Positions 4,451 through 52,144 of a stretch of DNA of 64,000 bases are shown piece after piece. Under the pieces are notes generated by a model, which saw only the letters and a program-made list of their open reading frames with translations, was not told the origin of the DNA and did not search any database. The position numbers and the translations under genes are program-made. Source of the stretch: Streptomyces sp. NBC_01351. Lineage in GTDB: Bacteria > Actinomycetota > Actinomycetes > Streptomycetales > Streptomycetaceae. The DNA lies in contig NZ_CP108356.1 of the NCBI RefSeq assembly GCF_036237315.1, positions 7,197,501-7,261,500 of the forward strand. The letters run 5' to 3'. Position 1 is the first letter of the stretch. Each line of letters opens with the position of its first letter.

Positions 4451-5443
4451 ATGGGCACGGCAGCGAACCTGAGCTCGTACACGGGCCGGCCCTCCGGCCT
4501 GATCGGCCGGCAGATCGCGGGTTACCGGGTCGAGCGCCTGATCGGCCGCGGCGGCATGGCCGTCGTGTACTGCGCGAAGGACCTGCGCCTGGACCGGATG
4601 GTCGCCCTCAAGCTGATCGCCCCGGAGCGCGCCCTCGACGAGACCTTCCGGCGCCGTTTCACCCACGAGTCACGGGTGGCTGCGAAGATCGACCACCCGC
4701 ACATCGTGCCCATCTTCGAGGCCGGCGAGACCGACGGCGTCCTGTACATCGCCATGCGCTACGTCTCCGGCCTCGACCTGCGCGGTCTGCTGGACCGGGA
4801 GGGGCCGCTCCCCGTCGCGACCGCCCTGCGCATCGCCTCCCAGGTGGCCTCCGCACTCGACGCGGCCCACGAGCACGATCTGGTCCACCGGGACGTCAAG
4901 CCCGCCAACATCCTGGTCGCCGCGGGCACCGACAGCGACCACCCCGAGCACTGCTACCTCACGGACTTCGGGCTCACGAAGAAGGCGCTCTCGCTCACCG
5001 GGTTCACCACGGCGGGCGAGTTCGTCGGCACGCTCGACTACATGGCGCCGGAACAGATCACCGGCCGTCCCGTGGACGGCCGGTGCGATCTCTACAGCCT
5101 GGCCTGCGTGGTCTACGAGTCCCTCGCGGGCGGGCCCCCCTTCGAGCGCGACGAGGACGTGGCCCTGCTCTGGGCGCACCAATACGACCAGCCGCCTCCC
5201 GTGATCGAGAGGCGGCCGGACATCGCGCCCGCGGTGGACGAAGTGCTGGGGAAGGCCCTGGCGAAGATCCCCGAGGACCGGTACGGATCCTGCCTGGAGT
5301 TCGTGGCGGCCCTGCGGGTCGCGGCCGGGGCGGGCGCCGGGGCCGGTGTCGTCAAGCGCACCGTCCCGGGGAGGGCCGTGCCGCCGCCGGAGCCTCCGGC
5401 CTGGGCCCGGCCGGTCTTCGGCGGCCCGCCCGGCCTGCGGTAG
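4451..5443 (+). CDS. Soluble Hanks-type serine/threonine protein kinase
   Basis: 330 residues; the kinase domain spans about 24-295. Visible motifs are the Gly loop GRGGMAVVY, catalytic Lys in VALKLIA (about residue 53), HRDVKPAN (about 147), DFG (about 172), APEQ at the activation-segment end, and DLYSLACV. Unlike PknB, it has no transmembrane segment or PASTA domains; it ends with a short Ala/Gly then Pro-rich tail (PPPEPPAW). A cytoplasmic phosphotransfer enzyme is expected. It stands alone after the terminator of the Gly-rich genes and converges with the small LuxR gene, so its substrate is not given by context. Confidence 0.93.
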   Translation: MGTAANLSSYTGRPSGLIGRQIAGYRVERLIGRGGMAVVYCAKDLRLDRMVALKLIAPERALDETFRRRFTHESRVAAKIDHPHIVPIFEAGETDGVLYIAMRYVSGLDLRGLLDREGPLPVATALRIASQVASALDAAHEHDLVHRDVKPANILVAAGTDSDHPEHCYLTDFGLTKKALSLTGFTTAGEFVGTLDYMAPEQITGRPVDGRCDLYSLACVVYESLAGGPPFERDEDVALLWAHQYDQPPPVIERRPDIAPAVDEVLGKALAKIPEDRYGSCLEFVAALRVAAGAGAGAGVVKRTVPGRAVPPPEPPAWARPVFGGPPGLR

Positions 5444-5469
5444 ACGCCCGCGGCCTCCGTGATCGGGTG

Positions 5470-5700
5470 CTAGAGCCCCAGGGAGATGGCCAGTCGGGTC
5501 ATCTCCGCCGTGGTGTTGATGCCCAGCTTGGCCCGGATGCGGCGCAGGTAGGCGTCGACGGTGTGCTTGGAGAGTCCCATGAGGCGGGCCGTCTGCAGGT
5601 AGGTGCATCCGGCGGCGATGTAGCGCAGTGCCTCCTGCTCGCGCGGGGCGAGCGTGGGGGCGGGAGCTTCGACCTGCGGCATGGTGAGTGTGAGGCTCAT
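5470..5700 (-). CDS. Stand-alone LuxR/NarL-type DNA-binding protein
   Basis: 76 residues. The start at 5700 follows GGAGG with a 7-base spacer, which makes it preferable to an in-frame ATG at 5733. Nearly the whole protein is a GerE-like helix-turn-helix: LAPREQEALRYIAAGCTYLQTARLMGLSKHTVDAYLRRIRAKLG (split motif APREQEALRYIAAG and KHTVDAYLRRI). It has no receiver or sensor domain. Such GerE-size proteins bind DNA constitutively or depend on abundance. Its upstream region holds an inverted repeat (5755-5785), and the next gene upstream is a multi-domain PP2C phosphatase on the same strand. Target genes are unknown. Confidence 0.85.
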   Translation of the reverse strand: MSLTLTMPQVEAPAPTLAPREQEALRYIAAGCTYLQTARLMGLSKHTVDAYLRRIRAKLGINTTAEMTRLAISLGL

Positions 5701-5754
5701 GGGATTACCTCCGACGAATCGGCTCGGTCTCACTGCTCACGCCTTCGGAAGCAG

Positions 5755-5785
5755 GGGACATATCCCGAATGTCGTCGTATGTCCC
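5755..5785. promoter_or_regulatory. GGGACATA/TATGTCCC inverted repeat upstream of the small LuxR gene
   Basis: Perfect 8-base arms at 5755-5762 and 5778-5785 are separated by 15 bases, centred about 70 bases upstream of the LuxR-type start. Position and symmetry suit an operator, possibly for autoregulation. A hairpin role is less likely because the arms are AT-containing and widely spaced. Confidence 0.45.
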
Positions 5786-5843
5786 TGATAAAGAGCTTGT
5801 TCGTCGGAGTTCATGGCGGTGTCCGCCGACTGTCACAGCGGTG

Positions 5844-8009
5844 TCACAGGGATCCGAAGTCGACGAGGGACTGCTCGGCCCAGATGGTCTTGCCGATCAC
5901 CGTGTGCCGGGTGCCCCACCGCTTCGCGAGCTGGGCGACGAGCAGCAGGCCCCGCCCTCCCTCGTCGAAGATCCGGGCCCGCCGCATGTGCGGCGCGGTG
6001 CTGCTCGCGTCGGAGACCTCGCAGATCAGCGTGCTCTTCTCGTGGATCAGCCGCAGCTGGACGGGCGGCGCGCCGTAGCGGATGGCGTTGGTGACCAGCT
6101 CGCTCACCAGCAGCTCGGTGACGAAGGAGGCCTCCTCCAGCCCCCAGGCGGTCAGCTGCTCGGTGGTCTGCCGGCGGGCCTCGGAGACGACCGAGGGGTC
6201 GGAGGCCAGGTCCCAGACGACGACCTGGTCGGCATGGAGGGCCCGGGTCCGGGCCACGAGCAGGGCGACGTCGTCCTCGGGCCGGTGGGTCAGCAGCGCG
6301 GTCAGTACCCGGTCGCAGACCGTGTCCAGCGTGGAGGCGGGGCGGACCAGGGCCGCGAGCATCGTGTCCAGTGCCTCGTCGATGTCGTGGTCGCGGGTCT
6401 GCAGCAGGCCGTCGGTGTAGAGGGCGAGGACGCTGCCCTCGGGCAGCTCGACCTCGACGGTCTCGAAGGGCAGGCCGCCCAGACCCAGCGGCGGCCCGGC
6501 CGGGACGTCGAGGAGGTACGCCGAGCCCTCCGGGGTGACCACGGCGGGCGGCGGGTGACCGGCCCGGGCGACGGTGCAGCACCGGGTGACCGGGTCGTAG
6601 ACCACGTACAGGCAGGTGGTGCCGATGCCCCCGGCGGCCTCCCCGTTGTCCTCCTGATCGGCCTCGTCGGCGGACAGGTGGATGATCAGGTCGTCGAGGT
6701 GGGTGAGCAGCTCGTCGGGCGGCAGATCGACGTCGGCCAGGGTGCGCACCGCCGTGCGCAGCCGGCCCATGGTGGCGGATGCACGGATGCCGTGACCCAC
6801 GACATCGCCCACGACCAGGGCCACCCGGGCACCGGACAGCGGGATCACGTCGAACCAGTCGCCGCCCACCCCGGCCTCGGAGCCGGCCGGCAGGTAGCGG
6901 GAGGCGATGTCCACCGCCGCATGGTCCGGCAGCGTGTGCGGGAGCAGGCTGCGCTGCAGGGTCATGGTGCTGGTGTGCTCACGGGTGTACCGGCGGGCCT
7001 TGTGGATGCTGACGGCCGCCTTGGCCGTCAGCTCCTCGGCCAGCAGCAGGTCCTCCGGCCGGAACGGCTCCTGGCGCTCGTGACGGCTGAAGACCGCCAG
7101 GCCGAGCGTGACACCGTCGGCGCGCAGCGGCACCAGCATCAGGGCGCGGGCCCCGTACTCGCCGATCCAGGCGGCCGCGGGATCCTGGGACACCCAACGG
7201 GCCACGGCCGGGTCGGTGGCCGCGTACACGGCGCCGCGGCCCGAGGCCAGGCACTCGACGGCGGGGGAGAGCGGCGGATAGGCGCTCGTCGCTCCCACCG
7301 AGATCCGGGCCTCCGGGCTGCCGCCGAGGATCGACCGCACCGCGGTGCGGGACACGGTGACGGGCCCGGGAACGGCACGGGAGGACGCCCCGTCGGCGCG
7401 CGGGGGAGGCTCCAGCAGGTCGACGACCGCGAGGTCGGCCAGCCGGGGGACGGCCACGTCGACCAGCTCCTGCGCCGTACGGGCGCTGTCCAGGGTGGTG
7501 CCGATGAGCGCGCCGGCCACGTCCGGCATGAGCAGCTGCTGCCGCTCGCCCTCGATCGCGGCCCTGTCGTGCGCGGCCAGGCCCACCGCGCGCACCCGGC
7601 CGTCCGGATCGCGCAACGGGGTCAGCGAGGTCGCCCAGCCGCGCCCGTGCTCCGCCGAGCTCGTACCCGCCGGGCGGACGAAGGAGTCCAGGTGTTGCGG
7701 CTCACCGGTCTCCAGGGCCAGGCGCATCCTGCGCTCGGTCTCCTCGCTCACGGGATCCGGCGCGATCTCCGGCAGCCGCAGCCCGCGCATCTCGGCCTCC
7801 GTGAGCGACAGCGTGCGCTCCATGCCGGAGTTCGCCCGCAGCAGCCGCAGGTCGGCGTCGAAGATCGCCAGGAAGCAGGGGGACTGGTCGAAGGCCCAGT
7901 CCTTGAGGGCTTGGCCCCAGGACGTGGTGGTCGTGGCCGTGCGTGCCGACTCGTGGGAGGCGTTCGTCTCCTCCGGCCGCTCACCGGGGGAGGTGGGAAG
8001 TTGCTCCAT
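5844..8009 (-). CDS. PAS-GAF-SpoIIE (PP2C) phosphatase with C-terminal HATPase domain
   Basis: 721 residues. Approximate domain order is PAS (35-150), GAF (170-345, ending AAVSIHKARRYTREH), SpoIIE/PP2C phosphatase (365-590) and an anti-sigma-type HATPase_c (600-715). The phosphatase shows VGGDWFDVIPL, VVGDVVGHG and LYTDGLLQTR, the metal-binding acidic motifs. The HATPase carries ELVTNAIRYG and GRGLLLV. Proteins of this layout dephosphorylate anti-anti-sigma factors and can also phosphorylate or bind them, acting as sensors for alternative sigma factors. No partner STAS or anti-sigma gene is adjacent. The small LuxR gene lies 143 bases downstream on the same strand. Confidence 0.93.
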   Translation of the reverse strand: MEQLPTSPGERPEETNASHESARTATTTTSWGQALKDWAFDQSPCFLAIFDADLRLLRANSGMERTLSLTEAEMRGLRLPEIAPDPVSEETERRMRLALETGEPQHLDSFVRPAGTSSAEHGRGWATSLTPLRDPDGRVRAVGLAAHDRAAIEGERQQLLMPDVAGALIGTTLDSARTAQELVDVAVPRLADLAVVDLLEPPPRADGASSRAVPGPVTVSRTAVRSILGGSPEARISVGATSAYPPLSPAVECLASGRGAVYAATDPAVARWVSQDPAAAWIGEYGARALMLVPLRADGVTLGLAVFSRHERQEPFRPEDLLLAEELTAKAAVSIHKARRYTREHTSTMTLQRSLLPHTLPDHAAVDIASRYLPAGSEAGVGGDWFDVIPLSGARVALVVGDVVGHGIRASATMGRLRTAVRTLADVDLPPDELLTHLDDLIIHLSADEADQEDNGEAAGGIGTTCLYVVYDPVTRCCTVARAGHPPPAVVTPEGSAYLLDVPAGPPLGLGGLPFETVEVELPEGSVLALYTDGLLQTRDHDIDEALDTMLAALVRPASTLDTVCDRVLTALLTHRPEDDVALLVARTRALHADQVVVWDLASDPSVVSEARRQTTEQLTAWGLEEASFVTELLVSELVTNAIRYGAPPVQLRLIHEKSTLICEVSDASSTAPHMRRARIFDEGGRGLLLVAQLAKRWGTRHTVIGKTIWAEQSLVDFGSL

Positions 8010-8124: not shown

Positions 8125-8769
8125 TCAGGGGCGCGCGAGGACGAGGGCGAGCAGCGCGTCCCCCGCTCGCCACACCATCGCGCGGCGCCGTCCGGCGAGC
8201 AGGGGCGGCCCGAGGGCGAGGATCTCGATGCCGCGCGGCGCTGCGCCGAAGACGCTGCTGCGGTCGGCCTTGACCGCGGCTTCCTTGAGCGCCCAGGCGC
8301 CGGCCAGCGCCTCGGGCCGCCGCGTACCGATGAGGGAGAGCTCCGAGGGCGAGAAGGCGTGGTCCGCGACGCGGCGCACGGTGGCGGCGGAGCCGGTCTC
8401 GCACAGGTCCACGCCGACCGGTTCCGGGGCGAGGGCCGCGGCGACGTGGCGGGTTGTGTGGCTGATGGAGAGGTGCAGCCCGGGCACCGGGCTGCCGCCG
8501 ACGAGCACGCACGGGCTGCCGTCGGCACGCGGGAGGACCTCCACCTGGGGCGCCGGCGCGGAGACGACCTGGCCGACCAAGCGCTTGGCGAGCAGTCGGC
8601 CGGCCAGCCACTCGGCCTGCCGCCAGGCCGGGAGCGCGCCGACCACGCGGCGCTCGGCCACCGAAAGGGGTGGCGCTGCGAGGAGGTCGGTGCGCCGGGC
8701 CACGATGAGGGCCGCTCCGCCCCATCGGTGGACGTCGCCCGGCGCGATCCGCCGGAAGGTGGTGTCCAT
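8125..8769 (-). CDS. 4'-phosphopantetheinyl transferase (Sfp/AcpT type)
   Basis: 214 residues. It transfers phosphopantetheine from CoA to carrier-protein serines. The signature motifs are present: LSISHT (substrate loop), VGVDLCE (Mg-binding Asp/Glu) and WALKEAAVKA (WxxKEAxxK). The start lies 11 bases past the PKS-AONS stop, indicating translational coupling and a dedicated role in activating that enzyme's ACP. It could also serve the CchH carrier domains, since no other PPTase is seen in the window. Confidence 0.93.
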   Translation of the reverse strand: MDTTFRRIAPGDVHRWGGAALIVARRTDLLAAPPLSVAERRVVGALPAWRQAEWLAGRLLAKRLVGQVVSAPAPQVEVLPRADGSPCVLVGGSPVPGLHLSISHTTRHVAAALAPEPVGVDLCETGSAATVRRVADHAFSPSELSLIGTRRPEALAGAWALKEAAVKADRSSVFGAAPRGIEILALGPPLLAGRRRAMVWRAGDALLALVLARP

Positions 8770-8780
8770 GACGGCGGGGC

Positions 8781-11700
8781 TCAGGCGGCGGCCGGAGCCG
8801 GAGCGGGAGCGGGAGCCGGGGCCGGTTCCAGGTTCCGGAGCTCCTGCGCCAGCGCGGTCACCGTGCGGCGGATCTGGTCGGGCGTGTGCTCATGGGTGAC
8901 GAAGAAGCGCAGCCGGGCCATCTCCTCGGGTACCGCCGGGTAGAGGATCGGATTGACGCTGATTCCCTGCTGGAACAAGGCCTCGGCCAGCCGCAGCGTC
9001 CTCAGCGAGTCCCCGACAATGCACGGCACGATCGCCGTGTCGTGGCTGTCCCCGGTGTCCACGCCCGCATCGCGCGCGAGGCGGACGAGCAGCGCGGCGT
9101 TCTCGGCCAGACGTGCCACGCGCTCCGGCTCCGCACGCAGCACCCGCAGGGCGGTCAGGGAGGCGGCGGTGTCGGCCGGGGTCATGCCCGCGCTGAAGAC
9201 GAATCCCGGAACGGTGTACCGCAGGTACTCGACGACCGCCCGGTTCCCGGCGACGTAGCCGCCGCAGCTCGCCAGGGCCTTGGACAGCGTCCCCGACCAC
9301 AGTTCCACGGCCGAGCGGTCGACGCCGAAGTACTCGCCGATACCGCGCCCCGTCGCACCGATCGTGCCGATGCTGTGCGCTTCGTCGATCATCAGCAGGG
9401 CACCGTGCCGCCGCTTGACCTCGATGAGCGCGGGCAGGTCGGCGATGTCGCCGTCCATGCTGTACACGCCCTCGATGACGACGAGCACCCGCCGGTACTG
9501 GTGGCGGACCCGCGCGAGGAGGGCGTCGAGGGCGGCCGCGTCGTTGTGGGGGAACGGCCGCCGGGTCGCGCCGGAGAGCGTGCACCCCTGCAGGATGCTG
9601 TCGTGGGCGAGGGAGTCGTGGACGACGAGGTCGCCCGGTCCGACGAGGTGCCCGATCACGGTGACGTTGGTGGCGTGCCCGTTGGCCAGGGTGATCGCGG
9701 CCTCGCATCCGAGCAGGTCGGCGAGTTCGGTGTCGAGCTCCACGTGGAGCGGACGGCTGCCGGACAGCAGCCGGCTGGCGGACACCGACGTGCCGTAGCG
9801 CTCGATCGCCTCCTTGGCGGCCTCGCTCACACGGGGGTGCGTGGCCATGCCCAGGTAGTTGTAGCTGGAGAAGGAGAGGAGCTCCCGGCCGTCCACCACG
9901 GTGGTGTCGGTCATGCCGCCCTCGTGGACGAGGAAGTACGGATTGGGGAGCCCGAGCGCCCCGAGCGTCTCCACGCGGCGGCCGTGCTCGGTGACCTCCG
10001 GGAAGCACTCGATCCGCGTGTGCTCCTCGGGCAGCGGGACGGGCGGGCCGGAGGGCGCCTGGTGCCCCTGCTCGTGCTGCCCGTGTTCGTGCTCGGCGCG
10101 CTGACCGGGTACGGCGGCGGGCGTGGCTTCGGCCTCAGGTTCGGCCTTGGCCTTGGCCTTGACCTTGGCCTCGGCCTCGAACCTGGCCTCGGCCTTGGGC
10201 TCGACCCCAGCCCCGCCCTCGGGCTCGGCTTCGGCCTCGGCGGTGCCGGTCGCGATCAGCGCGGAGATCCTCCCGACCGTCGGCCGGTCGGCCACCCTTT
10301 CGTCGAACCTCCACCGCGGCCACTCCCGCTTGAGGGAGGTGAACAGGTCGGTCAGCATCAGCGAGTCGAAACCGAGGTCGTCGATCAGCAGCTGGTCGCC
10401 GTTCAGGTGGCTCACCGGGAACGCGCTGATCCGGGCCACGTGCCCGAGCACGGTTCCTGTGACCTCGTCGATGCCCCCGATCAGCGACGGCTCCGCGTCG
10501 GCCGGTGCGGCAGCCGGTGCGTCGACCGGTACGGCGGCCGGTACGAAGACCTCCTCGGCCGGCGCGGGCTGCGCCGGCGCAGGCTCCGGTCGGGGCGCCG
10601 GCTCCGGTCGGGGCCGGACCGGGGCGGCGGGGGCCGCCTGCCGTGCGCCGCGCCCGCCCGTCACCCAGTACGACTGGGTGTCGAGCTTCGCCACCGGCAG
10701 GTCCAGCAGACGGCGGTCCTCCGCGGGAACCAGGGCGCGCGGGTCGACCGGGACGCCCAGGACCGCGAGCCGGGCGAGGGCCAGGACGAAGGAGCGCCCG
10801 CCGTCCGGCTCCGCCCCCACGACGGGGACGACGTGGAGGTCGCCGTGGCCGGAGAGGTTGCGGCAGACCGAGGTGAGCAGCGAGCTGCCGCCGGCCACCT
10901 GGACGAAGACGCGCGCGCCCTGCTCGTACGCGGTGCGGACGGCGTCGCCGAAGTGGACCGGCGAGGACGCGTGCCGCGCCCACAGCTCGCGCAGTCGCCC
11001 GGGGTCGGAGCAGACCTCCGCGTTCACGGAGGAGATGAACGGCAGCACGGGGCCGCTGACGGGACGGGCGGCGAGGTCCGCGCGCATGCTCTCCTCGGCG
11101 GAGGCCAGCCGCGGCGAGTGGAAGGCATTGGACACCTCCAGCATCGCCGTCACGATCCCGGCCTCGGCGCAGGCCTGCCGCATCGCGGCGAGTCCGTGCG
11201 GCGTGCCGCTGACCACGACCTGCCGCGGCTGGTTGAAGCAGGCGAGCCACACGTCGTCGATGCCGTCGATGAGCCGGCGGCAGGTCTCCCTGTCGCTCTG
11301 CACGGCGAGCATTCCGCCCCGCTGGCCGCTCTCGGCCTGCCGCAGGGCCGCGCCGCGGTGGACGAGCAGCCGGACGGCGCCCTCGTCGGAGAGCGCTCCG
11401 GCGGCCGCGGCCGCGGCGAACTCCCCGACGCTGTGGCCGAGGGTGAGGTCGGGGGCGATCCCGCAGTCGGCGAGGAGCCGGGTCGCGGCGATCTGGACGG
11501 TACCGAGCAGCGGCTGGCACACCTCGGTCGAGGTGAGCCGCTGTCCGAGCTCCTCGGTGCGGCCACGGGTGTACGCGGTGGCCGCGGCCTCCCCGTACAG
11601 CAGATCGGCGATGTCGAAGCCGGTGTCGCGGCGCGCCACGGCGCTCAGGACCCCGACCGTCGCCCGGAAGCCGGGGAACCGCTCGTGCAGGTCCTCCATC

Positions 11701-13457
11701 ATGCCCGGCCGCTGACTGCCCTGACCGGGGAAGAGGAAGGCGATCCGGCGCTGATCGGCCGGCAGCGGGGCGTCGGCGGCGAAGGCGCCGTCGCCGAGGT
11801 CGCCCCGGGCGCCTTCGACGAGCTGCCGGCGGGCGTGGCGCAGCCGTTCGGTGAACCCGTCCGTGTCGGTGGCCACGATCGCGAGCCGGGCCGTCAGCGG
11901 CCGGCGCGCGCCCAGCGTGTGGGCTAGCGCGGTGATCGGCGGACGGTCCGCCGTGTCGAGGGCGTCGAGCACGTCGAGCACCTCGCCGATGTGCCGGTCC
12001 AGCAGCTCGGGGTTGCCGGCCGACAGCAGTACGAGGTGGGGCGCGGGGCCCTCGGTGCGTACGGCGGGGCGGGCGGCGGCCGGCGCGGTCGGCGCCTCCT
12101 CCAGCACCACGTGGACGTTGGTACCGCCGAAACCGAAGGAGCTGACGGCGGCCCGCCGCGGGGCCCGCTCGCGCGGCCAGGGCCGTGCGGTCTCGGCGAT
12201 GCGCAGGCCCGCGGCGGAGATGCCGAGGTCCGGATGGGGGGTGGTGTGAGGCTGGGGCACGATCGTGCGGTGGTGGACGACCAGGGCCGTCTTGATCAGC
12301 CCCGCGATGCCCGCCGCGGCCAGGGAGTGCCCGATCAGGGCCTTGCCGGCGGCGAGGTAGCACAGCGCGGGGTCGTCGTCGGGGTACTCGGTGCGCAGCC
12401 GGCGCAGCGCCTCCGACTCGGCGCGGTCGCCCGCGGCGGTCCCGGTGCCGTGGGCTTCGAGGAAGCCGACGGAGGAGGGGGCGACCCCGGCGTCGTCGTA
12501 GGCGCGGCGCATGGCGCGGAGCTGGCCTTCGGCGGTGGGGATCAGAGGCCCGGGGGAGGCGCCGTCGTTGGCCGAACCGACGCCCTTGATCACCGCGTAG
12601 ACGCGGTCTCCGTCGGCGAGCGCGTCGGCGAGCGGCCGTATGACGACGACCCCCGCGCCCTCGCCGAGGACGAAGCCGTCGGCCGCCTCGTCGAACGGCC
12701 GGCACACCCCGCTGGCGGACAGCGCGCGGAGCCGGGAGAAGCCGACCAGGCTGTCGGGGGTGAGGTTGAGGTACACCCCGCCGACGGCGGCGATCCGGCA
12801 GGTGCCCAGCCGCAGGTGGGCGATCGCCTGGTCGAGGGCGACCAGCGATCCGGAGCACGCGGCGTCGACGGCGAAGCTGGGGCCGCCGAGGTCGAAGTGC
12901 CGGCTGACGGTCCCGGACGCCATGTTGAGGAGGCTCCCGGGCAGCGTGAAGCTCTGGATGGTGCCGAGCTGCCCTGCCTGCGCCTTGACGGCGTCGAGGC
13001 CGTCCCGGTCGTCCGCGTCGAGCGAGTCCTCGGCCAGGGTGATGGCCCGGATGGGGGCCGCCATCAGGTCCTTGTAGTCGGACACCGACAGTCCGAAGAA
13101 GACCCCGGTGTTCTCCCGGTCGAAGTCGCCGCGTCCCAGCCCCGCGTCGTCGAGGGCCTCGCGCGTGACGTCGAGCATCAGGCGGTGCTGCGGGTCCATG
13201 GCCCGGGCGCGGGCGGGCGGGATCCCGTAGTGCAGGGCGTCGAAGCGGTCCACGTCGTCCAGGAAGGCGACCTGGTCGGTGTAGGCCGCGTTGGGGGCCG
13301 ACCGGTTGGCGGGTTCGTGGAAGGTCTCGTGGTTCCAGCGTTCCGGCGGGACGGCGGAGAACTGCCGCTCCCCGCTCAGCAGGAGCTTCCAGTAGCCGTG
13401 GACGTCGAGGGCTCCGGGGAAGCGGCAGCCGAGTCCGGTGATGGCGATGTCGGTCAT
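8781..13457 (-). CDS. Single-module polyketide synthase KS-AT-ACP fused to an alpha-oxoamine synthase (AONS) domain
   Basis: 1558 residues. KS about 1-445: active Cys in DAACSGS (about 200), His in EAHGTGT and IGHSLAAAG. AT about 565-890: FLFPGQGSQ, nucleophile in GHSVGE (about 674); NAFHS in the specificity region matches malonyl-type HAFH rather than methylmalonyl YASH. ACP about 995-1075 with phosphopantetheine Ser in GFDSL (about 1030). An EA/KA-rich linker (about 1080-1140) follows, then a PLP-dependent AONS domain about 1155-1540 with NGHATN, DEAHSIG and PLP Lys in TLSKALASCGG (about 1391). No KR, DH, ER or TE is present. The layout predicts one malonyl extension, then decarboxylative condensation of the beta-ketoacyl-ACP with an amino acid, as in prodiginine PigJ plus PigH. 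A 60-base gap follows the MMPL gene; the PPTase follows after 11 bases. Confidence 0.93.
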   Translation of the reverse strand: MTDIAITGLGCRFPGALDVHGYWKLLLSGERQFSAVPPERWNHETFHEPANRSAPNAAYTDQVAFLDDVDRFDALHYGIPPARARAMDPQHRLMLDVTREALDDAGLGRGDFDRENTGVFFGLSVSDYKDLMAAPIRAITLAEDSLDADDRDGLDAVKAQAGQLGTIQSFTLPGSLLNMASGTVSRHFDLGGPSFAVDAACSGSLVALDQAIAHLRLGTCRIAAVGGVYLNLTPDSLVGFSRLRALSASGVCRPFDEAADGFVLGEGAGVVVIRPLADALADGDRVYAVIKGVGSANDGASPGPLIPTAEGQLRAMRRAYDDAGVAPSSVGFLEAHGTGTAAGDRAESEALRRLRTEYPDDDPALCYLAAGKALIGHSLAAAGIAGLIKTALVVHHRTIVPQPHTTPHPDLGISAAGLRIAETARPWPRERAPRRAAVSSFGFGGTNVHVVLEEAPTAPAAARPAVRTEGPAPHLVLLSAGNPELLDRHIGEVLDVLDALDTADRPPITALAHTLGARRPLTARLAIVATDTDGFTERLRHARRQLVEGARGDLGDGAFAADAPLPADQRRIAFLFPGQGSQRPGMMEDLHERFPGFRATVGVLSAVARRDTGFDIADLLYGEAAATAYTRGRTEELGQRLTSTEVCQPLLGTVQIAATRLLADCGIAPDLTLGHSVGEFAAAAAAGALSDEGAVRLLVHRGAALRQAESGQRGGMLAVQSDRETCRRLIDGIDDVWLACFNQPRQVVVSGTPHGLAAMRQACAEAGIVTAMLEVSNAFHSPRLASAEESMRADLAARPVSGPVLPFISSVNAEVCSDPGRLRELWARHASSPVHFGDAVRTAYEQGARVFVQVAGGSSLLTSVCRNLSGHGDLHVVPVVGAEPDGGRSFVLALARLAVLGVPVDPRALVPAEDRRLLDLPVAKLDTQSYWVTGGRGARQAAPAAPVRPRPEPAPRPEPAPAQPAPAEEVFVPAAVPVDAPAAAPADAEPSLIGGIDEVTGTVLGHVARISAFPVSHLNGDQLLIDDLGFDSLMLTDLFTSLKREWPRWRFDERVADRPTVGRISALIATGTAEAEAEPEGGAGVEPKAEARFEAEAKVKAKAKAEPEAEATPAAVPGQRAEHEHGQHEQGHQAPSGPPVPLPEEHTRIECFPEVTEHGRRVETLGALGLPNPYFLVHEGGMTDTTVVDGRELLSFSSYNYLGMATHPRVSEAAKEAIERYGTSVSASRLLSGSRPLHVELDTELADLLGCEAAITLANGHATNVTVIGHLVGPGDLVVHDSLAHDSILQGCTLSGATRRPFPHNDAAALDALLARVRHQYRRVLVVIEGVYSMDGDIADLPALIEVKRRHGALLMIDEAHSIGTIGATGRGIGEYFGVDRSAVELWSGTLSKALASCGGYVAGNRAVVEYLRYTVPGFVFSAGMTPADTAASLTALRVLRAEPERVARLAENAALLVRLARDAGVDTGDSHDTAIVPCIVGDSLRTLRLAEALFQQGISVNPILYPAVPEEMARLRFFVTHEHTPDQIRRTVTALAQELRNLEPAPAPAPAPAPAAA

Positions 13458-13517
13458 GACGGTTCTTCCTTCGGTGTTGTGGTGCGGTGCGGGATGCGTA
13501 CGGGGGTGTGCCGGCCG

Positions 13518-15731
13518 TCAGCGGCGCGCGGGGGCGCGGGTGCAGAGGGCGGTGCGGACCGGGGCCCGGCGGCGCACGGGCGGGCACCTCCCGGAGGTGT
13601 CCGGGGGAGGGCGGGGCGCCGGGCGCGGCGCCCTGCGCTTCAGTACCCGCGGCGCCCACCAGTTCAGGCCGCCCGCCAGGCGCATGAGCGCCGGTACGAG
13701 GACGCCCCGTACGAGCGTGGCGTCGAGGAGGACGCCAAGGCCCGCGCCGATCCCGAAGAACTGCAGGAGGGAGACCCGGGAGGTGCCGAAGCTCAGCAGG
13801 GTGAAGGCCAGGAGGGCGCCGGCGGTCGTGACGATGCCGCCCGTGCGGGAGATGCCCGTGACGATCGCGGCGGCGTCGTCCTGCCCCGCCTCGTGCGCCT
13901 CCTTGATCCGCGCGAGGACGAACACCTCGTAGTCCACGGACAGCCCGAAGACGATGCAGAACAGCAGCACCGGCATGGTCGTGCTGAGCGGGCCGGGCGT
14001 GAAACCGAGCAGCTGGTGCAGATGGCCCGACTGGAAGATCCACACCATGGCGCCGAGGACGGCGGTGAGGCTCAGCGCGTTCAGTGCGATGGCCTTCAGC
14101 GGCAGGAGCAGGCTGCGCGTGAAGCCGAGCAGCAGCACGAAGGTGGTGAGGGTGATCACGGAGAGGGCGAGCGGCAGCCGGTCCGCGACGGTGGCCTTCG
14201 CGTCGACCAGCACCGCGCTCGGTCCGCCGACGAGGACCTCTGTGCCCGCCGGGGCGACGGCCCCGCGGACGTCGCGCACGAGCTGCTGCGCGGCGTCCGA
14301 CCGGGGGTCGACCAGCGGCACCACGGAGAGCCGGACCGGGCCCTCGCCGACGGGGCCCACGACCTCCGTGACCTGCCCGACCTGCGGGAGGGAGGACAGC
14401 CGACGGGCGTACTCGGCCCGCTCCGGCGCGGACGCGGTACCCGCCATGACGACGTTCAGCGCACCGGCGCCCTTCATGTCGAACTCCTCGCGCACCAGGT
14501 CCCCGGTCTGCCGGCCGGCCGTGCTCAGCGGCAGCGCCCGGTCGTCGGGGGTGGCGAAAGTGGCGTGCGCGAACGGCCCGGAGAGGAGCACCAGCAGACC
14601 GATCACCGGCAGCGCCGCGACCAGCGGGCGGCGTACGACGATCCGCGCCAGCCCTTCCCAGAACCGCGACCGCGAGCCCGCGTGCACGCGGCGGCGCCAC
14701 GGCACGGGCCAGGCGTTCACCCGGTTCCCGAGCAGTGTGAGCAGGGCCGGCAGGACGGTCACGGCGCTCACGGCCGCGATGGCCACCACGGCGATGCCCG
14801 CGTAGGCGAAGGAGCGCAGGAAGTACGGCGGGAACACGAGCAGCGTCGCGAGCGCGGCCGAGACCGTGGCGGCACTGAACAGGATCGTGTGGCCGGCGGT
14901 GCGCACGGTCCGCACGGCGGCGTTGCGCGGCCGGTATCCGGCGGCGAGTTCCTCACGGAACCGGGAGACGATCAGCAGCCCGTAGTCGATGCCCAGCCCC
15001 AGGCCGAGCGCCGTGGTGAGGTTCAGCGCGAACACGGACACGTCGGTGACGGCGCCGAGGACGCTCAGGATCAGCAGGGTCCCGGCGATGGCCAGCACCC
15101 CGATCAGCAGGGGCAGGGCCGCGGCCACCACACTGCCGAACACCAGGACCAGCAGGAGCAGGGTGCCCGGCAGGACGACGGCCTCGGCCCGCTTCAGGTC
15201 GGACTCCGCGATGTCCTGGAGCTCGGCGTCGACCAGAGCCGGTCCGCCCGCGTGGACGGAAAGGGAGCCGGACGTGGAGGCGGCCGGGGCGGTCAGCTCG
15301 TCGCGCAGGCGCTCGACCCGCTCCGCGAGCTCCTCGCCCTCGCCGTCCACGTGCGCGAGGAGCATGGCCGCGTGGCCGTCCCGGCTGCGCAGCTCCGCCG
15401 CGCCGCCGGTCCAGTACGAGGTCACGGCGCTCACGTGCGGCCGGGCGGCGAGGCGCCCGGTCAGGCCCTCGCCCGCGCTCCGGGCCGCCGGGTCGTCGAC
15501 GTAACCGCCGCGCACCCGCGCCACGACCACCAGGTTGGGGGAGGCTCCGAGCCGCTCGGCCGCCACCTGGGCGGCGCGGCTGGACTCGGATCGCGGATCG
15601 TCGTACCCCTGCGTCTTCAGCCGGCCGGTCGATCCCGCGCCGAGCGCGACGGACAGCAGCAGGAACGCGAGTGCGGCGAAGAGGACGAACCGGGGGCGGC
15701 GGGTCACGAAGACTCCGGCACGGGGGTACAT
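13518..15731 (-). CDS. MMPL/RND-family lipid exporter
   Basis: 737 residues. ATG at 15731 was chosen over an upstream in-frame ATG (15839) because GGAGG sits 6 bases before it and the protein then begins MYPRAGVFVTRRPR just ahead of TM1. It shows the two-fold RND layout: TM1, a large external loop (about 40-180), five or so TM segments, TM7, a second loop and a terminal TM cluster. Asp-Tyr pairs occur in both halves (GIDYGL about 249, SVDYEVF about 598), matching the proton-relay pairs of MmpL3-type transporters. It is first gene of the operon with the PKS-AONS and PPTase, which points to export of their product, probably a lipid-like compound. Confidence 0.92.
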   Translation of the reverse strand: MYPRAGVFVTRRPRFVLFAALAFLLLSVALGAGSTGRLKTQGYDDPRSESSRAAQVAAERLGASPNLVVVARVRGGYVDDPAARSAGEGLTGRLAARPHVSAVTSYWTGGAAELRSRDGHAAMLLAHVDGEGEELAERVERLRDELTAPAASTSGSLSVHAGGPALVDAELQDIAESDLKRAEAVVLPGTLLLLVLVFGSVVAAALPLLIGVLAIAGTLLILSVLGAVTDVSVFALNLTTALGLGLGIDYGLLIVSRFREELAAGYRPRNAAVRTVRTAGHTILFSAATVSAALATLLVFPPYFLRSFAYAGIAVVAIAAVSAVTVLPALLTLLGNRVNAWPVPWRRRVHAGSRSRFWEGLARIVVRRPLVAALPVIGLLVLLSGPFAHATFATPDDRALPLSTAGRQTGDLVREEFDMKGAGALNVVMAGTASAPERAEYARRLSSLPQVGQVTEVVGPVGEGPVRLSVVPLVDPRSDAAQQLVRDVRGAVAPAGTEVLVGGPSAVLVDAKATVADRLPLALSVITLTTFVLLLGFTRSLLLPLKAIALNALSLTAVLGAMVWIFQSGHLHQLLGFTPGPLSTTMPVLLFCIVFGLSVDYEVFVLARIKEAHEAGQDDAAAIVTGISRTGGIVTTAGALLAFTLLSFGTSRVSLLQFFGIGAGLGVLLDATLVRGVLVPALMRLAGGLNWWAPRVLKRRAPRPAPRPPPDTSGRCPPVRRRAPVRTALCTRAPARR

Positions 15732-15928
15732 GGTGCCTCCGATTCCCTGGTAGATCCCGATCGGCTCCTGCTGAGCAGGACGGTCGATCTCCACCGTGCC
15801 CGGGGGCGGGGCGAGGGCGTAGCCCCGGCAATTCGTCACTTGACAGGAGCCGTGGGGAGGTCTCCGGCTTGTCCACAGGTTCGGCCGGGAGGGACGGGGG
15901 TGTCGGCAGGTGCCGCTAGGCTTCTCGA

Positions 15929-33525: not shown

Positions 33526-33638
33526 GTTCCGGGTCGTGGCTTCGTCGTGGTGCCCGATTTCCGTGCTTCCCGATGATCTACCGACGGCTACCCGCCTGCT
33601 CGGTACGGCGGCCCGCCCCCCCGCACGATGGGAGTGAC

Positions 33639-35000
33639 ATGGCACAGGCTCGTCCTGGCGAACCCCCGTTGATTCACGACCTCATTGGCATCGGCTTCGG
33701 CCCGTCCAACGTGGCCATGGCGATCGCGGTGAGCGAGCACAACTCACGCGTCGGCAGAGGGGAAGCGATCACCGCTCACTTCTTCGAGCAGCAGCCGCGC
33801 TTCGGCTGGCACCGGGGCATGCTCATCGACGACGCGACCATGCAGGTGTCCTTCCTCAAGGACCTGGTGACCCTCCGGAACCCGGCCAGCGAGTACAGCT
33901 TCCTGTGCTACCTGAAGAGCAGGGGGCGGCTGATCGACTTCATCAACCACAAGAATTTCTTCCCCCTGCGGATCGAGTTCCACGACTACCTCGAATGGTC
34001 CGCGGACAAGGTCGACGACATGGTCTCCTACGGCCACGAGGTCGTCGGCGTCACGCCCGTCGTGCGCGACGGAGTCGTGGAGCACCTCGACGTCACGGTC
34101 CGGTCGGGGGAGGGGCTCGCGCTGCACCGGGCCCGCAACCTCGTCATCGGCACCGGCCTGCGTCCCCTGATGCCGGACGGCGTGGAGCGCAGCGACCGCC
34201 TCTGGCACACCTCCGATCTGCTGACCAAGGTCGACGGCCTGGAGGGAGAGGGAGCCGCCCCCTCGCGGTTCATCGTCGTGGGCGCCGGGCAGAGTGCCGC
34301 CGAGAACGTCGCCTACCTGCACCGCCGCTTCCCCGAGGCCGAGGTCTGCGCCGTCTTCTCCCGGTACGGGTACAGCCCCGCCGACGACAGCAGCTTCGCC
34401 AACCGGATCTTCGACCCGGCGGCGGTGGGCGAGTACTTCGATGCGCCCGAGGACGTCAAGCGCAGGCTGATGGACTACCACGGGAACACCAACTACTCCG
34501 TGGTGGACATCGACCTGATCGACGACCTGTACCGGCAGATGTACCAGGGGAAGGTCCTCGGCACCGAGCGCCTGCGCTTCATCAACGTCTCCCGGCTGAC
34601 CGACGTCAGGGAGACGCCGGCCAGGGTCCACACCACCGTGCAGTCGCTCGTCACCGGAGAGGAAGCGTCCCTGGACGCGGACGTCGTGGTCTTCGCCACC
34701 GGCTACCGCCCCGCCGACCCGCTCGGCCTCCTCGGCGAGGTCGCCGATCGCTGCCTCTGCGACGACGAGGGCCGCGTCCGCGTCGAGCGCGACTACCGCG
34801 TCGCGACCGACCCCGAACTGCGCTGCGGAATCTACGTACAGGGCGGTACGGAGCACACGCACGGCATCACGTCGTCGCTCCTGTCCAACATCGCCATCAG
34901 GGTCGGCGAGATCCTCGACTCGCTCCTCGACCGGGGTCTCAAGTCCGATTCCGACGAGGTCAGAACGGTCGCCGACGGCACGGGCAGCGCGGCCCGCTAG
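33639..35000 (+). CDS. cchB: L-ornithine N5-monooxygenase CchB
   Basis: 453 residues from ATG 33639. Flavin-dependent N-hydroxylating monooxygenase: FAD motif GIGFGPSNVAMAIA, NADPH motif VVGAGQSAAENVAYL, and C-terminal ATGYRP. Substrate-site elements (MQVSFLKDLVTLRNP, NYSVVDIDLI) match ornithine hydroxylases such as PvdA/SidA. It makes N5-hydroxyornithine for CchA and for module 3 of CchH. First gene of the rightward operon. Confidence 0.95.
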   Translation: MAQARPGEPPLIHDLIGIGFGPSNVAMAIAVSEHNSRVGRGEAITAHFFEQQPRFGWHRGMLIDDATMQVSFLKDLVTLRNPASEYSFLCYLKSRGRLIDFINHKNFFPLRIEFHDYLEWSADKVDDMVSYGHEVVGVTPVVRDGVVEHLDVTVRSGEGLALHRARNLVIGTGLRPLMPDGVERSDRLWHTSDLLTKVDGLEGEGAAPSRFIVVGAGQSAAENVAYLHRRFPEAEVCAVFSRYGYSPADDSSFANRIFDPAAVGEYFDAPEDVKRRLMDYHGNTNYSVVDIDLIDDLYRQMYQGKVLGTERLRFINVSRLTDVRETPARVHTTVQSLVTGEEASLDADVVVFATGYRPADPLGLLGEVADRCLCDDEGRVRVERDYRVATDPELRCGIYVQGGTEHTHGITSSLLSNIAIRVGEILDSLLDRGLKSDSDEVRTVADGTGSAAR

Positions 35001-41125: not shown

Positions 41126-44100
41126 ATGACGGAATCGACCACTCGTCTCGTGCGGCTTTCTCCCACGCGCCTGGCCGGCGTGCGCCGCCGGGCCGGCGAC
41201 TACTCCGACAGAACCATCGCCGAAGCCTGCTCCATCGGGCTCGCGTACTGGGCGACGGGCCGCGGCCCCGAGGGTTTGGAGCTCACCTCCGGCACCCGGT
41301 TCACCGATGTCCTCGGCTGGGCCGACAAGGGCGGGGCCGGGCCCACAGGGTGGGAGGTCGGCGCGGACGGTCGGAGCATCGCCGTCCCGGAGGACGTCGT
41401 ACCGGCCGACGCGCAGCGCGCCCTCGACGACCTGGCCGACTTCCCGGACCGGCCGCTGGGCAGCATCGGCCCGGCCGACGTGGCGGCGCGCCTCGAAACC
41501 CTGGCCGAGTGGAACGACACCCGGGCGGACCGGGAGCGCCCGACCATCGTGGAGATGTTCCGCGAGCAGGCGCGGACCAGGCCGGACGCCGTCGCCATCG
41601 TCGACCGGCACCGCTCATTGACGTACCGTCAAGCCGCTGAAATGTCCAGTCAGTTGGCCCATCACCTGATCGAGCGCGGCATCGGGGCCGAACAGGTCGT
41701 CGGCATCTCGCTGGACCGCTCGGCCGACATGGTGATCGGGCTGCTCGGCGTCCTCCAGACGGGCGCGGCCTTCGTACCGCTCGACCCGCACTGGCCGGCC
41801 GCACGCCGGGCCGTCGTCATCGACGACGCCGGCGTCGTACTCCAGCTGGGCGCCCCCGGCGCCTCCGGCGATCCCGGCGGGCGCGACCGGGCCGAACCGG
41901 AAGCCGTCGCCGTCGACCTCGCCGACTGGCGGTACGGCTCCTACCCCGGCGAGGGGACCGGGATCACCGTCCCCGGCGACGCCCTCGCCTACGTCATCTT
42001 CACGTCCGGCTCGACCGGCCGGCCCAAGGGCGCGATGATCCGGCACGAAGCGATCAGCGAACGCCTGCTGTGGCAGGTCGACGAGATCCTGCACTTCGGC
42101 CACGACGACGCGTCGCTGTTCAAGGCCCCGCTCTCCTTCGACATCTCCATCAACGAGATCTTCCTGCCGCTGGTGTCCGGCGGCAGGCTGGTGGTGCTGA
42201 GGCCCGGCGGCGAACGCGACCCGCACCACCTGCTGAGCGTGATCGCCGCCCAGCGCGTCACGTTCACCTACCTGGTGTCGTCCATGCTCGACGTACTGCT
42301 GGAGATCGAGGGCGACTCCGGGAGGCTGGACAGCCTGCGGCACGTGTGGTGCGGCGGCGAGGTGCTCACCCCGGAGCTGTACGAGCGGTTCCGCGCACGG
42401 TTCGACATACCCATGTACCACGGCTACGGACCGGCCGAGACGACGATCGGCGTCTCGCACGTCATCTACCGGGGCGCGGCGGAACGCCTGTCCACCTCGA
42501 TCGGCAAGGCCAACCCCAACACCCAGCTGTACGTCCTGGACGGCGAACTGCGCCCGGTCCCGGTCGGAGTCGGCGGCGAGCTCTACGTCGGCGGCTTCCT
42601 CCTGGGCCGCGGATACGCGGGCGCGCCCGGCCTGACGGCCTCCCGGTTCGTCGCCAACCCCTTCGCCGCGGACGGGTCACGGCTGTACCGCACCGGTGAC
42701 CTCGCGCGGTTCGCCCCCGACGGGTCCCTGGACTTCCTCGGCCGGACCGACAACCAGATCAAGATCCGCGGGATGCGGCTGGAGATCGAGGACGTCGAGG
42801 TCGGCCTCGCCGAGCACCCCGACGTACGGCACACCTGCGTCGTCGCGCGGAAGAACCCCGCCGGCGGCACCTACCTGGTCGGCTACGTCATCCCGGCCTC
42901 CGGCAGCGAGCACCTGCGGGCGGACGAGGTCAAGGCGTGGGCCGCCGCGCACCTGGTGGAGTACATGGTGCCCGCCCACATCGTCGTGATGAAGGAGTTC
43001 CCGCTCACCGACAACGGCAAGCTCGACCGCGGCGCGCTGCCGGAGCCCGAGACCGGCACGGGCCCGCTCGCCCCGCCCGCCACCGAGAACGAACGCCTGG
43101 TGTGCGCGGCGGTCGCATCGGTACTGCGCCTGGACGCGGTCGGCGTCGACCAGGACTTTTTCCAGCTCGGCGGGGACAGCATCCTGGCCATCTCGCTGCT
43201 GAGCGCGTTGCGTGACGCGGGCCTCCACGTCACCGCCCGGCAGATCTTCACCCACACCGTCGTGGCGGCGCTCGCGGCGGTCGCCGATCGCGAAGGCACA
43301 GCCCTCGTGGACCACGACGACGTCCCGACCGGCCGTGTCGTGGGATCCCCGATCGTCCAGTGGCTCGGCGAGACCACGGACGCGATCGACGGCTTCGTGC
43401 AGTCGGTGGTGCTCAACACCCCGGCGGACCTGACCGCCGACGCCCTCGACGAGATCCTCGCCACCGTGCTCGGACGCCACCACATGCTGCGCGCCAGGCT
43501 GGTGCGCGGCGACCGCTGGAGCTTCGAGATCCCGGAAGCGGGCCCGGAAGCCGGCCGGGTCGCCGCAGTCAGGCAGGAGAGCGACCTGCCGCTCGACGCG
43601 TGCGTCGCGCTCGCCACCGACGGGCTGGACCCCGACGGCGGGGTGATGGTGCGTGGCGTGTGGCGCCGCGCCGCGCGGCAACTGGTCCTGGTCGCCCACC
43701 ACGTGGTGATCGACGGCGTGTCCTGGCGGATCCTGCAGGAGGACCTCGCGACGGCGTGGCGGCGGTACACCTCGGGCGAGCCGGCCGAACTGCCCCCGGT
43801 GGGAACCTCGTTCCGGCGCTGGACGCAATTACTGGAGGGCGCCGCGTTCGACGCGGACCTCGCCCACTTCCGGCGCCCCCTGCCCGGGATCGACGAGCCC
43901 CTGGGGCGGCGCGCGCTGTCCGCGGCCGACACCGTCGCGCGGGAGCGCGCGATGACCGTCACCGTCGGGCCCGAGGCCACGGCCGCGCTGCTGGGCGAGG
44001 TTCCCGCGAGGTTCCACGCGGGCGTCAACGACGTCCTGCTGACCGCGCTCGCCGTCACCCTCGCCCGATGGCGGCGCGACCGCGGGCAGGACCAGACGTT

Positions 44101-50100: not shown

Positions 50101-52144
50101 GGACGCGTTCGCCGAGATGAACGCCCGGCACGGCATCACCGCGGTGCGCGCCGACGACTCCACGCACTACCCGTTCACCTGGGTCGTCACCCCGGGCGAG
50201 CGGCTCACGGTCAAGCTGGAGTACCGCGACCACGACACGGATGCGGCCCGCAGGCTCCTCGACGACTACCTGCGCGTGCTCGACGACCTGGCCCGGTCCA
50301 CCGGCCCGGTGGGCGCCCTGCGGGGCCCGGGCCCGGGGCCGGAGCCCGAGCCCGTCGACCGTACGGACATCGGCACGGACACCGTCGTCGACCGCTTCGA
50401 CCGGGCGGCCGACCGCGACCCGGGGCGGGTCGCGCTCGTCGCCCACGGCCGGACCATGACCTTCGGCGCGCTCCGGGACCGCAGCCGCGCGGTGGCCGGT
50501 GTGCTCGCGGGACGCGGCATCGGCCCCGAGAAGACCGTGGCCCTCGCGATCCCGCGCTCCCTCGACTCGATCGTCGCGCTGTTCGCCGTACTGCGCACGG
50601 GCGCCGCGTACGTACCGCTGGAACTGGACCACCCGGACGAGCGGATCGCCGCGATCGTCGCCGACGCCCGCCCGGACGTGATCCTCACGGTGAGCGCCGT
50701 ATCGCCCCGGCTGACCGGCGACCTGCTCGAACTGGACCGGCCGCTCCCCGCGGCCGAGCCGTTCGCATCGTTCGCCCCCGACGACCCGGACCGGCTGCGG
50801 CACCCCGCGTACACGATCTACACCTCCGGATCGACCGGGAAGCCGAAGGGCGTGGTGACCGAGTACGCCGGGCTCACCAACATGCTGATCAACCACCAGC
50901 GCCGGATCTTCGAGCCGGTGCTGGCGGAACACGGCCACCGGGTCTTCCGCATCGCGCACACCGTGTCCTTCGCCTTCGACATGTCGTGGGAGGAACTGCT
51001 GTGGCTCGCCGACGGCCACGAAGTGCACGTCTGCGACGAGGAACTGCGCCGTGACGCTCCCCGGCTCGTCGAGTACTGCCTCGAACACGCCATCGACGTC
51101 GTCAACGTGACCCCGACCTACGCGCAACAGCTGGTGGCCGAAGGCCTCCTCGACGATCCGGCGCGGCGGCCGGCGCTCGTACTGCTGGGCGGCGAAGCCG
51201 TCACCCCGACCCTGTGGCAGCGGCTCGCCGAGACCGAGGGGACGGCCGGCTACAACCTGTACGGCCCCACCGAGTACACCATCAACACCCTCGGCGTCGG
51301 CACCTTCGAATGCCAGGACCCGGTGGTGGGCGTGGCCATCGACAACACCGACGTCTACGTGCTGGACCCGTGGCTGCGCCCCCTGCCGGACGGAGTCCCC
51401 GGCGAGCTGTACGTGGCGGGCATCGGCATCGCCCGCGGCTACCTCGGGCAGCCCGCCCAGACCGCCGACCGGTTCGTGGCCTGCCCGTTCGGGGCACCGG
51501 GCGAGCGGATGTACCGCACCGGGGACCTGGTGTCCCGGCGGCCCGACGGGAACCTGACGTACCTGGGCCGCACCGACCAGCAGGTCAAGATCCGCGGGCA
51601 CCGGGTCGAACTCGGCGAGGTCGAGGCCGCGTTCGCGGCGCACCCGGCGGTGCGGTTCGTCGCCGCGGTCGCCCAGCCCGACCCGCAGGTGGACGGCGCG
51701 TACCGGCTGGCCGCCTACCTCGTCCTCGGCGACGGGCGGGACCTGGCGGCGGTCGCCCACGAAGTGGGGGCCGCGCTGCCGGACTTCCTGCGCCCGACGC
51801 ACTACGCCCAGGTCGACGCCATCCCGCTGACGGTGAACGGGAAGGCCGACACCAAGGCGCTGCCGGAGGCCAGGCCGCTCGGCGCGCTGACCACGGCGGG
51901 GGAGCGCGGCCCGGAGACCGGGACCGAGACCGCGGTGTGCGCGTACTTCGCCGAGGCACTGGACCTGGACGACGACGAGGTGAGCGCGGTGAGCGATTTC
52001 GTGTCCCTCGGAGGGCACTCCATGCTGGCGGTGCGGCTGATCGGGCTGCTCCGCCGGGAGTACGGTCCTGTGATCACGATCCGTGACCTGTTCACCCTGC
52101 GGACCCCGGAAGCGATTGCGCGGCACCTTCATGACAACTCCTGA
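41126..52144 (+). CDS. cchH: Trimodular coelichelin-type NRPS CchH
   Basis: 3672 residues, order A-T-E-C-A-T-E-C-A-T with no thioesterase. A1 about 150-640, T1 Ser about 682 (GGDS), E1 HHVVIDG about 858, C HHIIADG about 1338, A2 from about 1560, T2 about 2205, E2 HHLAVDA about 2378, C3 about 2778, A3 from about 3080, T3 GGHS about 3629. Ten-residue codes read by alignment to GrsA: A1 DINYWGGIGK, A2 DFWNVGMVHK, A3 DMENLGLINK. These are the codes I know for formyl-hydroxy-Orn, Thr and hydroxy-Orn in coelichelin. Two epimerases predict D-residues 1 and 2. The first 100 residues look like a vestigial condensation-domain tail. The last condensation motif reads YHLLLWDG, off the HHxxxDG pattern. 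Confidence 0.96.

Follow-up and report, generated by a model that had tools for sequence, protein, structure and literature searches.

RedL makes 4-keto-2-undecylpyrroline from dodecanoate (PMC12654105, PMC11188435) by one malonyl extension and a condensation with glycine (PMC11188435). PigH/RedN with serine gives a hydroxybipyrrole (PMC11188435), and SgaAB produces long-chain sphinganines by combining a polyketide synthase (PKS) with an alpha-oxoamine synthase (AOS) (PMC12134224); these and all later citations refer to excerpts of the papers. Here, we describe a three-gene operon in a 64,000-nucleotide stretch of Streptomyces sp. NBC_01351 (the window; G000:C1:7197501-7261500 of an 8.9-Mb genome in three contigs), which encodes an MMPL-family transporter, a synthase with ketosynthase (KS), acyltransferase (AT), acyl carrier protein (ACP), and alpha-oxoamine synthase (AONS) domains in one chain, and a 4'-phosphopantetheinyl transferase (PPTase). 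In our judgment, there is an even chance that the operon extends an acyl chain once with malonate, releases it by AONS chemistry with a probable serine, lets it close to a 3-hydroxypyrrole or pyrrolinone, and exports it by MMPL. In the literature searched, with subscription papers largely outside its reach, we found no report on the MMPL/KS-AT-ACP-AONS/PPTase gene set, no characterized product (the first-pass annotation of this DNA had likewise named none), and no class of serine-derived 2-hydroxymethyl-5-alkyl-3-hydroxypyrrole lipids.

Domain content and catalytic residues

The synthase was scanned with Pfam and NCBIfam. Pfam placed the KS at residues 2-279 and 287-405, the AT at 574-890, and Aminotran_1_2 at 1192-1536, and both databases identified the pyridoxal phosphate (PLP) domain as BioF/serine palmitoyltransferase (SPT)-like. 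Neither listed a match in the synthase for a ketoreductase (KR), dehydratase (DH), enoylreductase (ER), or thioesterase (TE) domain. PP-binding (PF00550) had no Pfam match in the window synthase and did match some homologues. The best PDB match of the AONS domain was the serine palmitoyltransferase 3a2b (8guh equal; E value, 2.4e-74).

Conservation was counted over 121 sequences, namely, the window protein and the best 120 of 3,380 homologues at an E value of 1e-100 (8,000 scored). Both KS His residues and the AT Ser (GHSxG) were kept in 121/121, the F, H, and P of the AT motif AFHSP were invariant, and the Asp, His, and Arg of the alpha-oxoamine synthase family, aligned to SPT, were each kept in 120/121. 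The AT also matched FabD/MdcH, and we take its AFHSP motif to be a malonyl-type marker. Thus, the single-chain order KS, AT, ACP, and AONS without reductive or TE domains, as first annotated, was borne out by the Pfam/NCBIfam matches, the GFDSLML motif, and the kept residues, and the malonyl type of the AT by its motif (on our assumption of what that motif means) and its FabD/MdcH matches; the annotated AONS-type release is likewise supported, as a prediction from homology.

The homologues listed include a 1,422-amino-acid protein of S. venezuelae (P0119). This protein and three others (P0035, P0057, and P0104) have a similar stretch in the AT-ACP linker, starting at a Met and including a PMDxLxxLVQQQ-like part, that was not seen in the window protein; it may be a scar left when a gene for the KS-AT part fused with one for the ACP-AONS part.

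Comparison with described systems

RedL is the nearest precedent by architecture. It shares the KS-AT-ACP-AONS core in one chain, and the window AONS is 51.5 to 55% identical to those of seven RedL-like rows in our alignments. The RedL-like gene of locus L064 (L064:4600-12348) adjoins RedH (NF052632; 1611.7 bits; cutoff, 1350) and encodes the order ligase-ACP-KS-AT-ACP-AONS-epimerase (second ACP by BLAST), with AMP-binding at 15-419 (FAAL-type ligase) and PP-binding at 690-756 in its N-terminal unit. The remaining RedL-like rows took their name from their architecture and, where the stretch extended far enough, from a RedN-like neighbor, the cluster scan having covered L064. In contrast, the window KS begins at residue 2, without the ligase-ACP loading unit, belongs to a separate lineage, and is not followed in its chain by the C-terminal epimerase-family domain found in L064; the selectivity motif is Ser-Arg rather than Thr-Pro. 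No prodiginine gene neighborhood was found at the operon flanks, the rest of the genome not having been searched for red genes. Membership in RedL was rejected on four grounds (the absent loading unit, the KS lineage, the motif at the selectivity site, and the neighborhood); the window protein is predicted to work like RedL by analogy, yet it is not a RedL. The first-pass annotation had named PigH/RedN and SPT relatives as precedents and had missed RedL.

SgaAB of Pseudomonas fluorescens MYb115 is similar in coupling a type I PKS to an AOS of the serine type, a type predicted for the window AONS. Two SgaAB-like loci have an AOS gene near type I PKS genes, and the window AONS shares 53% (L031) and 55% (L026) identity with their products. 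However, the AOS of SgaAB-like loci is a separate gene. KR, DH, and ER-type domains are present in the SgaA-like PKS of L031 and in the PKS of the Planktothrix locus L027, and none is listed in the window synthase; for want of reductive domains, membership in SgaAB was also rejected. Neither an MMPL nor a PPTase is among the nine annotated genes of the SgaAB-like L031 stretch. In the PigH/RedN and PigJ/RedX systems, a beta-keto thioester on an ACP is likewise released with serine to a hydroxypyrrole, yet KS and ACP-AONS lie on separate proteins (PMC11188435). The AONS of four RedN-like rows was 39 to 42% identical to that of the window.

In the 10 KS-ACP-AONS loci read (L066, L067, L102-L104, L107-L110, and L118), comprising 8 of the 17 genus places at 57 to 61% identity plus L066 and L067 from another family of the order, there was no AT match in any, and the rows tested (L066, L102, and L107) share the window KS group. 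An epimerase-family gene adjoins the synthase gene in 9/10 (exception, L109; L067 judged by start and length), and an MMPL gene was seen only in L066, L067, and L104, 3 to 4 kb from the synthase gene. TetR and DUF6545 genes lie near the KS-ACP-AONS gene in most of these loci. Both the KS-ACP-AONS and the window family, judged by identity, are held by 5 of 246 sampled Streptomyces genomes.

The selectivity site was read by alignment to ThAOS, in which Val79 is the selectivity residue; the site is Val in KBL, Ser in SPT and Escherichia coli AONS, and Thr in R. capsulatus ALAS (PMC11906848). Ser1228 of the window protein occupies it and is Ser in 120/121 family members, as in the AOS proteins of SgaAB-like loci (2/2); RedL-like sequences have Thr and then Pro (10/10; seven tree rows plus L111, L112, and L119). 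PfSgaB takes L-serine almost exclusively, in preference to alanine and glycine (PMC12134224). Because Ser1228 is as in SPT and SgaB-like enzymes and PfSgaB prefers serine, the selectivity residue most likely favors serine as the substrate of the window AONS.

Kinship of the AONS and KS domains

Trees were built from 41 AONS rows (RedNlike_L065, RedNlike_L063, L044, and L060 left out) and 26 KS rows (3/17 hits with short alignments and 15/27 earlier rows left out), and both were rooted by midpoint, with long branches flagged (in the KS tree, SGA_L031 among others). In the AONS tree, the window family, L025, and the KS-ACP-AONS proteins (L066 and L067) grouped at 94/94, just under the star of the tool, and this group, the RedL-like rows, and the Sga/Planktothrix rows fell within one PKS-linked AONS clade (100/100). 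In the KS tree, the window family and both kinds of relatives formed one group (90/99, just under the star, and 100% of 200 bootstrap trees); the other group (99/99) held the RedL-like and Sga/Planktothrix rows with 7 of 8 PKS KS rows from the window's own genome, the eighth being unplaced. AONS thus seems to have joined with KS domains of at least two lineages. Within the genus, the separate line is found both with an AT domain and lacking one, and the form that lacks AT also occurs in another family of the order.

Proposed pathway and alternatives

The pathway starts from the domain order, the intact catalytic residues, the gene linkage, and the kinship, all of which were seen directly. The linked PPTase, or another in the cell, would convert the ACP to its holo form. 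The KS would then take an acyl starter; as the operon has no loading domain or ligase gene, fatty acid synthesis is its probable source. As the domain content suggests, the AT would load malonate on the ACP for one decarboxylative extension by the KS. With no reductive domain, the product would stay a beta-ketoacyl-ACP. By homology and Ser1228, the AONS would condense this thioester with an amino acid, likeliest L-serine, with loss of CO2 and release of an amino-diketone. On the chemistry reported for RedL and PigH/RedN, ring closure of the amine onto the distal ketone would yield a 5-alkyl-2-(hydroxymethyl)-3-hydroxypyrrole or the corresponding pyrrolinone tautomer, and the linked MMPL protein would carry the product out of the cell.

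Several of these steps follow from what the operon lacks. The window protein amounts to the RedL core minus the loading and final parts, and we infer one malonyl extension, AONS release, and ring closure from this. Since nothing in the operon reduces the beta-keto thioester, the amino-diketone should cyclize, and since there is no RedK-like reductase, the ring should keep its oxygen. The amino ketone annotated as the source of the product is therefore probably an intermediate, the expected product being the cyclized pyrrolinone or 3-hydroxypyrrole. That the pathway is self-contained, as also annotated, is unproven, as the operon has no acyl-activating or loading gene.

More tentatively, and with less confidence than we place in the pathway of this one operon, we propose that the KS-AONS fusions form a line apart from RedL and the SgaAB/cyanobacterial type that makes exported, serine-derived 2-hydroxymethyl-5-alkyl-3-hydroxypyrroles or pyrrolinones. 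If the prediction is true, one enzyme, an acyl starter, and serine may suffice for a pyrrole-type lipid, which makes it testable in a single in vitro reaction. The family would be an example of AONS release joined to KS domains of different lineages, it raises the question of whether MMPL proteins of actinobacteria other than mycobacteria export PKS lipids, and the operon would be a small orphan pathway within the genus.

Several observations weigh against an exported, serine-derived pyrrole. At the selectivity site, the diverged synthases of L025, L105, and L106 have Ala; E. coli AONS, an L-alanine user, carries Ser there too, and ThAOS V79S accepted Gly and Ala besides Ser (PMC11906848). The order among the three AONS groups was supported at 80/24 only, SgaB-like sequences being no closer than RedL-like ones, and the AONS identities of the two to the window overlap (53 to 55% versus 51.5 to 55%). 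Because the window KS lies outside the RedL lineage, a single extension per chain rests on analogy. Separately encoded reductases might work in trans on the ACP and give a sphingoid route. Finally, MMPL was lost repeatedly and so is not strictly needed: among the 15 named loci (below), it is broken or partial in L012 and L014 and was not found in L010, L021, and L023, and with 5/15 missing or damaged, it is either not essential or replaceable.

That sphingoid route is unlikely in our view, if the best of the alternatives. The KS would extend repeatedly, fatty acid reductases would act in trans, and the AONS would couple serine to a saturated acyl-ACP, so that lipids of the 3-ketosphinganine type would result. 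It would suit the SPT match in PDB, the serine-type selectivity residue, and the precedent of SgaAB, which makes long-chain sphinganines by PKS and AOS (PMC12134224). Against it, the reductive domains of the L031 and L027 PKS have no counterpart listed in the window synthase, the operon has no ketosphinganine reductase, and the window KS lineage differs from that of Sga/Planktothrix.

Slightly less probable again is RedL-like chemistry with glycine or alanine, which would give a pyrrolinone without the hydroxymethyl group. RedL itself uses glycine (PMC11188435), and both the three amino acids taken by ThAOS V79S and the alanine use of E. coli AONS with its Ser (PMC11906848) would fit. The Thr-Pro of all 10 RedL-like sequences versus the nearly uniform Ser of the window family argues for serine instead, as does the serine preference of PfSgaB, which has a related layout (PMC12134224). 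A nonreducing iterative synthase, adding several malonates unreduced and releasing a short aromatic or poly-keto amine by its AONS, would agree with the lack of listed reductive domains and a KS lineage without known iteration behavior, but it is improbable, as the operon has no cyclase or aromatase, RedL, the nearest enzyme by architecture, extends once (PMC11188435), and MMPL linkage would suit a lipid.

Operon layout and linkage across loci

ORF coordinates confirmed the annotated three minus-strand genes, transcribed in the order MMPL, synthase, PPTase and separated by 60 and 11 bases (Table 1). Close named homologues are from Streptomyces. Pfam found PF03176 in two stretches of the MMPL protein, whose mechanical ORF reaches further, to a GTG at 15839. 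The PPTase matched the ACPS superfamily (PF01648) at 32.4 bits (cutoff, 25), its N-terminal domain (PF17837) being below its own cutoff.

Table 1. Positions of the operon genes, synthase domains, and leader elements in the window
Feature	Position	Strand	Evidence
Sfp-type PPTase, 214 amino acids	8125-8769	-	Pfam ACPS
KS-AT-ACP-AONS synthase, 1,558 amino acids	8781-13457	-	Pfam and NCBIfam
AONS domain, ~residues 1150-1545, PLP Lys1393	8823-10010	-	PDB match; Lys in 120/121
Ser1228 codon, selectivity site equivalent to ThAOS Val79 and S. paucimobilis SPT Ser102	9774-9776	-	Alignment to the V79A structure 8s1y
ACP, ~residues 1001-1080, attachment Ser1032	10218-10457	-	GFDSLML motif; Ser in 121/121
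AT domain, ~residues 570-900, malonyl-type motif	10758-11750	-	Pfam; GHSxG and AFHSP motifs
KS domain, ~residues 1-455, active-site Cys201	12093-13457	-	Pfam; Cys in 121/121
MMPL-family transporter, 737 amino acids	13518-15731	-	ATG start; Pfam MMPL, 282.9 bits; linked homologues
Second conserved leader stretch CGGGCACGGTGG, downstream of TGTCAAGNNACGAANNGCNGGGNCTACG	15791-15802	-	Leader alignments
Conserved upstream element TGTCAAGNNACGAANNGCNGGGNCTACG	15818-15845	-	One window match; 0 expected from shuffles

A pattern-based scan of genome contigs returned 16 loci, 15 from Streptomyces with the synthase (the named loci) and one AONS-only locus from Verrucomicrobia (L024), the latter and genome G012 being left out of linkage counts. 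Gene calls at related loci came from a simple rule based on GC by codon position, by which genes or starts can be missed. An MMPL homologue lies whole and directly upstream in 10/15 named loci (L009, L011, L013, L015-L020, and L022), that of L018 aligning as two pieces within one frame. The PPTase is full length and directly downstream in 11/14 assessable named loci; L014 has a fragment of it, none was found in L012 or L019, and L011 could not be assessed because its contig stops there. The synthase is split over two frames in L014 and L016, and the KS-AT part of L012 and L022, for which one tblastn search showed none, was seen in the locus comparison. Five further loci (L113-L117), drawn from 16 other family genomes in a genus sample and possibly repeating species of the named loci, have MMPL in 5/5 (in two frames in L117) and a PPTase in 2/5.

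Recurrence of the gene set in other Streptomyces argues against chance. Conserved linkage, which the first-pass annotation had made a condition, held for MMPL, whereas the PPTase is an optional rather than a defining part of the set; its description as dedicated is weak, with the gene not found or broken in 3/14 assessable named loci and not found in 3/5 of the further ones. In the diverged KS-AT-ACP-AONS loci (L025, L105, and L106), a divergent MMPL is present in 3/3 (41 to 43% identity), directly adjoining the synthase in L025 and with a TetR-like gene intervening in L105 and L106; a PPTase was not found at these three loci. From this pattern, MMPL would seem to have joined the synthase first and the PPTase to have come later, as an optional partner. 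The extension of MMPL linkage to this diverged subgroup was counted in favor of the proposed pathway. In L025 and L106, a protein of 336 or 386 amino acids adjoins MMPL (65% identical to each other), and that of L025 has a nitroreductase-family Pfam match (30 bits).

In the genus draw of 246 genomes, 42 had an AONS match at an E value of 1e-110 or better; seven candidates per genome were scored, so that these counts are lower bounds. By identity, 47 listed places were sorted into 17 at ≥76% (the window's own included), 2 at 62 to 63% (L105 and L106, which are KS-AT-ACP-AONS), 17 at 57 to 61%, and 11 at 52 to 56%, of which the five examined (L062, L063, L111, L112, and L119) all have Thr-Pro. 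The window family is thus present in at least 17/246 sampled genomes, its own included, and more genomes of the genus hold relatives of other architectures.

The synthase of G012 seemed to lie in two places 2.1 Mb apart (L068 and L120), which was treated as an assembly artifact. The peptide ahead of its ACP-AONS half is presumably a translated sequencing adapter, which points to such an artifact and is why this locus was left out of the linkage counts. No MMPL was seen beside the ACP-AONS half, and the upstream element sits directly before the KS-AT half.

Upstream element

The leader of the operon carries TGTCAAGNNACGAANNGCNGGGNCTACG, which has no other match in its own genome when up to 3 mismatches are allowed. 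A first leader alignment covered 7/15 loci and was replaced by a best-match search over 22 loci (window, L009-L023, L113-L117, and L120), in which 22 fixed positions were scored. There was at most one change in 17 loci, 3 to 4 in three, and 5 and 6 in L115 and L117. In four other loci, L025 had 6 changes, L068 had 7, and L105 and L106 had no match within 7; because L025 and L068 reach 6 to 7 changes, the weakest of the 22 matches count by position only. At the loci that gave no upstream MMPL match (L010, L021, L023, and L120), the element lies at most ~170 bases from the synthase start.

Such an element is probably the promoter or operator of the operon. A sigma-70 scan of the leader found nothing, and Rfam gave one chance-level match only (E value, 0.56; 14.1 bits versus a gathering score of 200). 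The region was also considered as coding, a peptide in one frame being partly similar, but no start codon was conserved by eye, and the element was therefore taken as noncoding.

Neighboring genes

The operon is flanked by LuxR, SpoIIE, and kinase genes and by a gene that we take, from its sequence and without a domain scan, to be recQ. At 4451-8009 of the window are a Ser/Thr kinase, a small LuxR-type regulator, and a PAS-GAF-SpoIIE phosphatase, in an order beside the operon that recurs in many named relatives. This recurrence is probably synteny and possibly reflects a regulatory role.

Elsewhere in the window are an L-lysine/L-ornithine monooxygenase (33573-35000, plus strand) and a 3,672-amino-acid nonribosomal peptide synthetase (41126-52144, plus strand) with three adenylation and four condensation stretches. 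Together, these two genes resemble a cluster for a hydroxamate siderophore and have no relation to the operon. On the third contig of the same genome (L070, G000:C3), an AONS-like gene (44% identical) adjoins a KS gene in a layout that resembles L030 of another Streptomyces plasmid.

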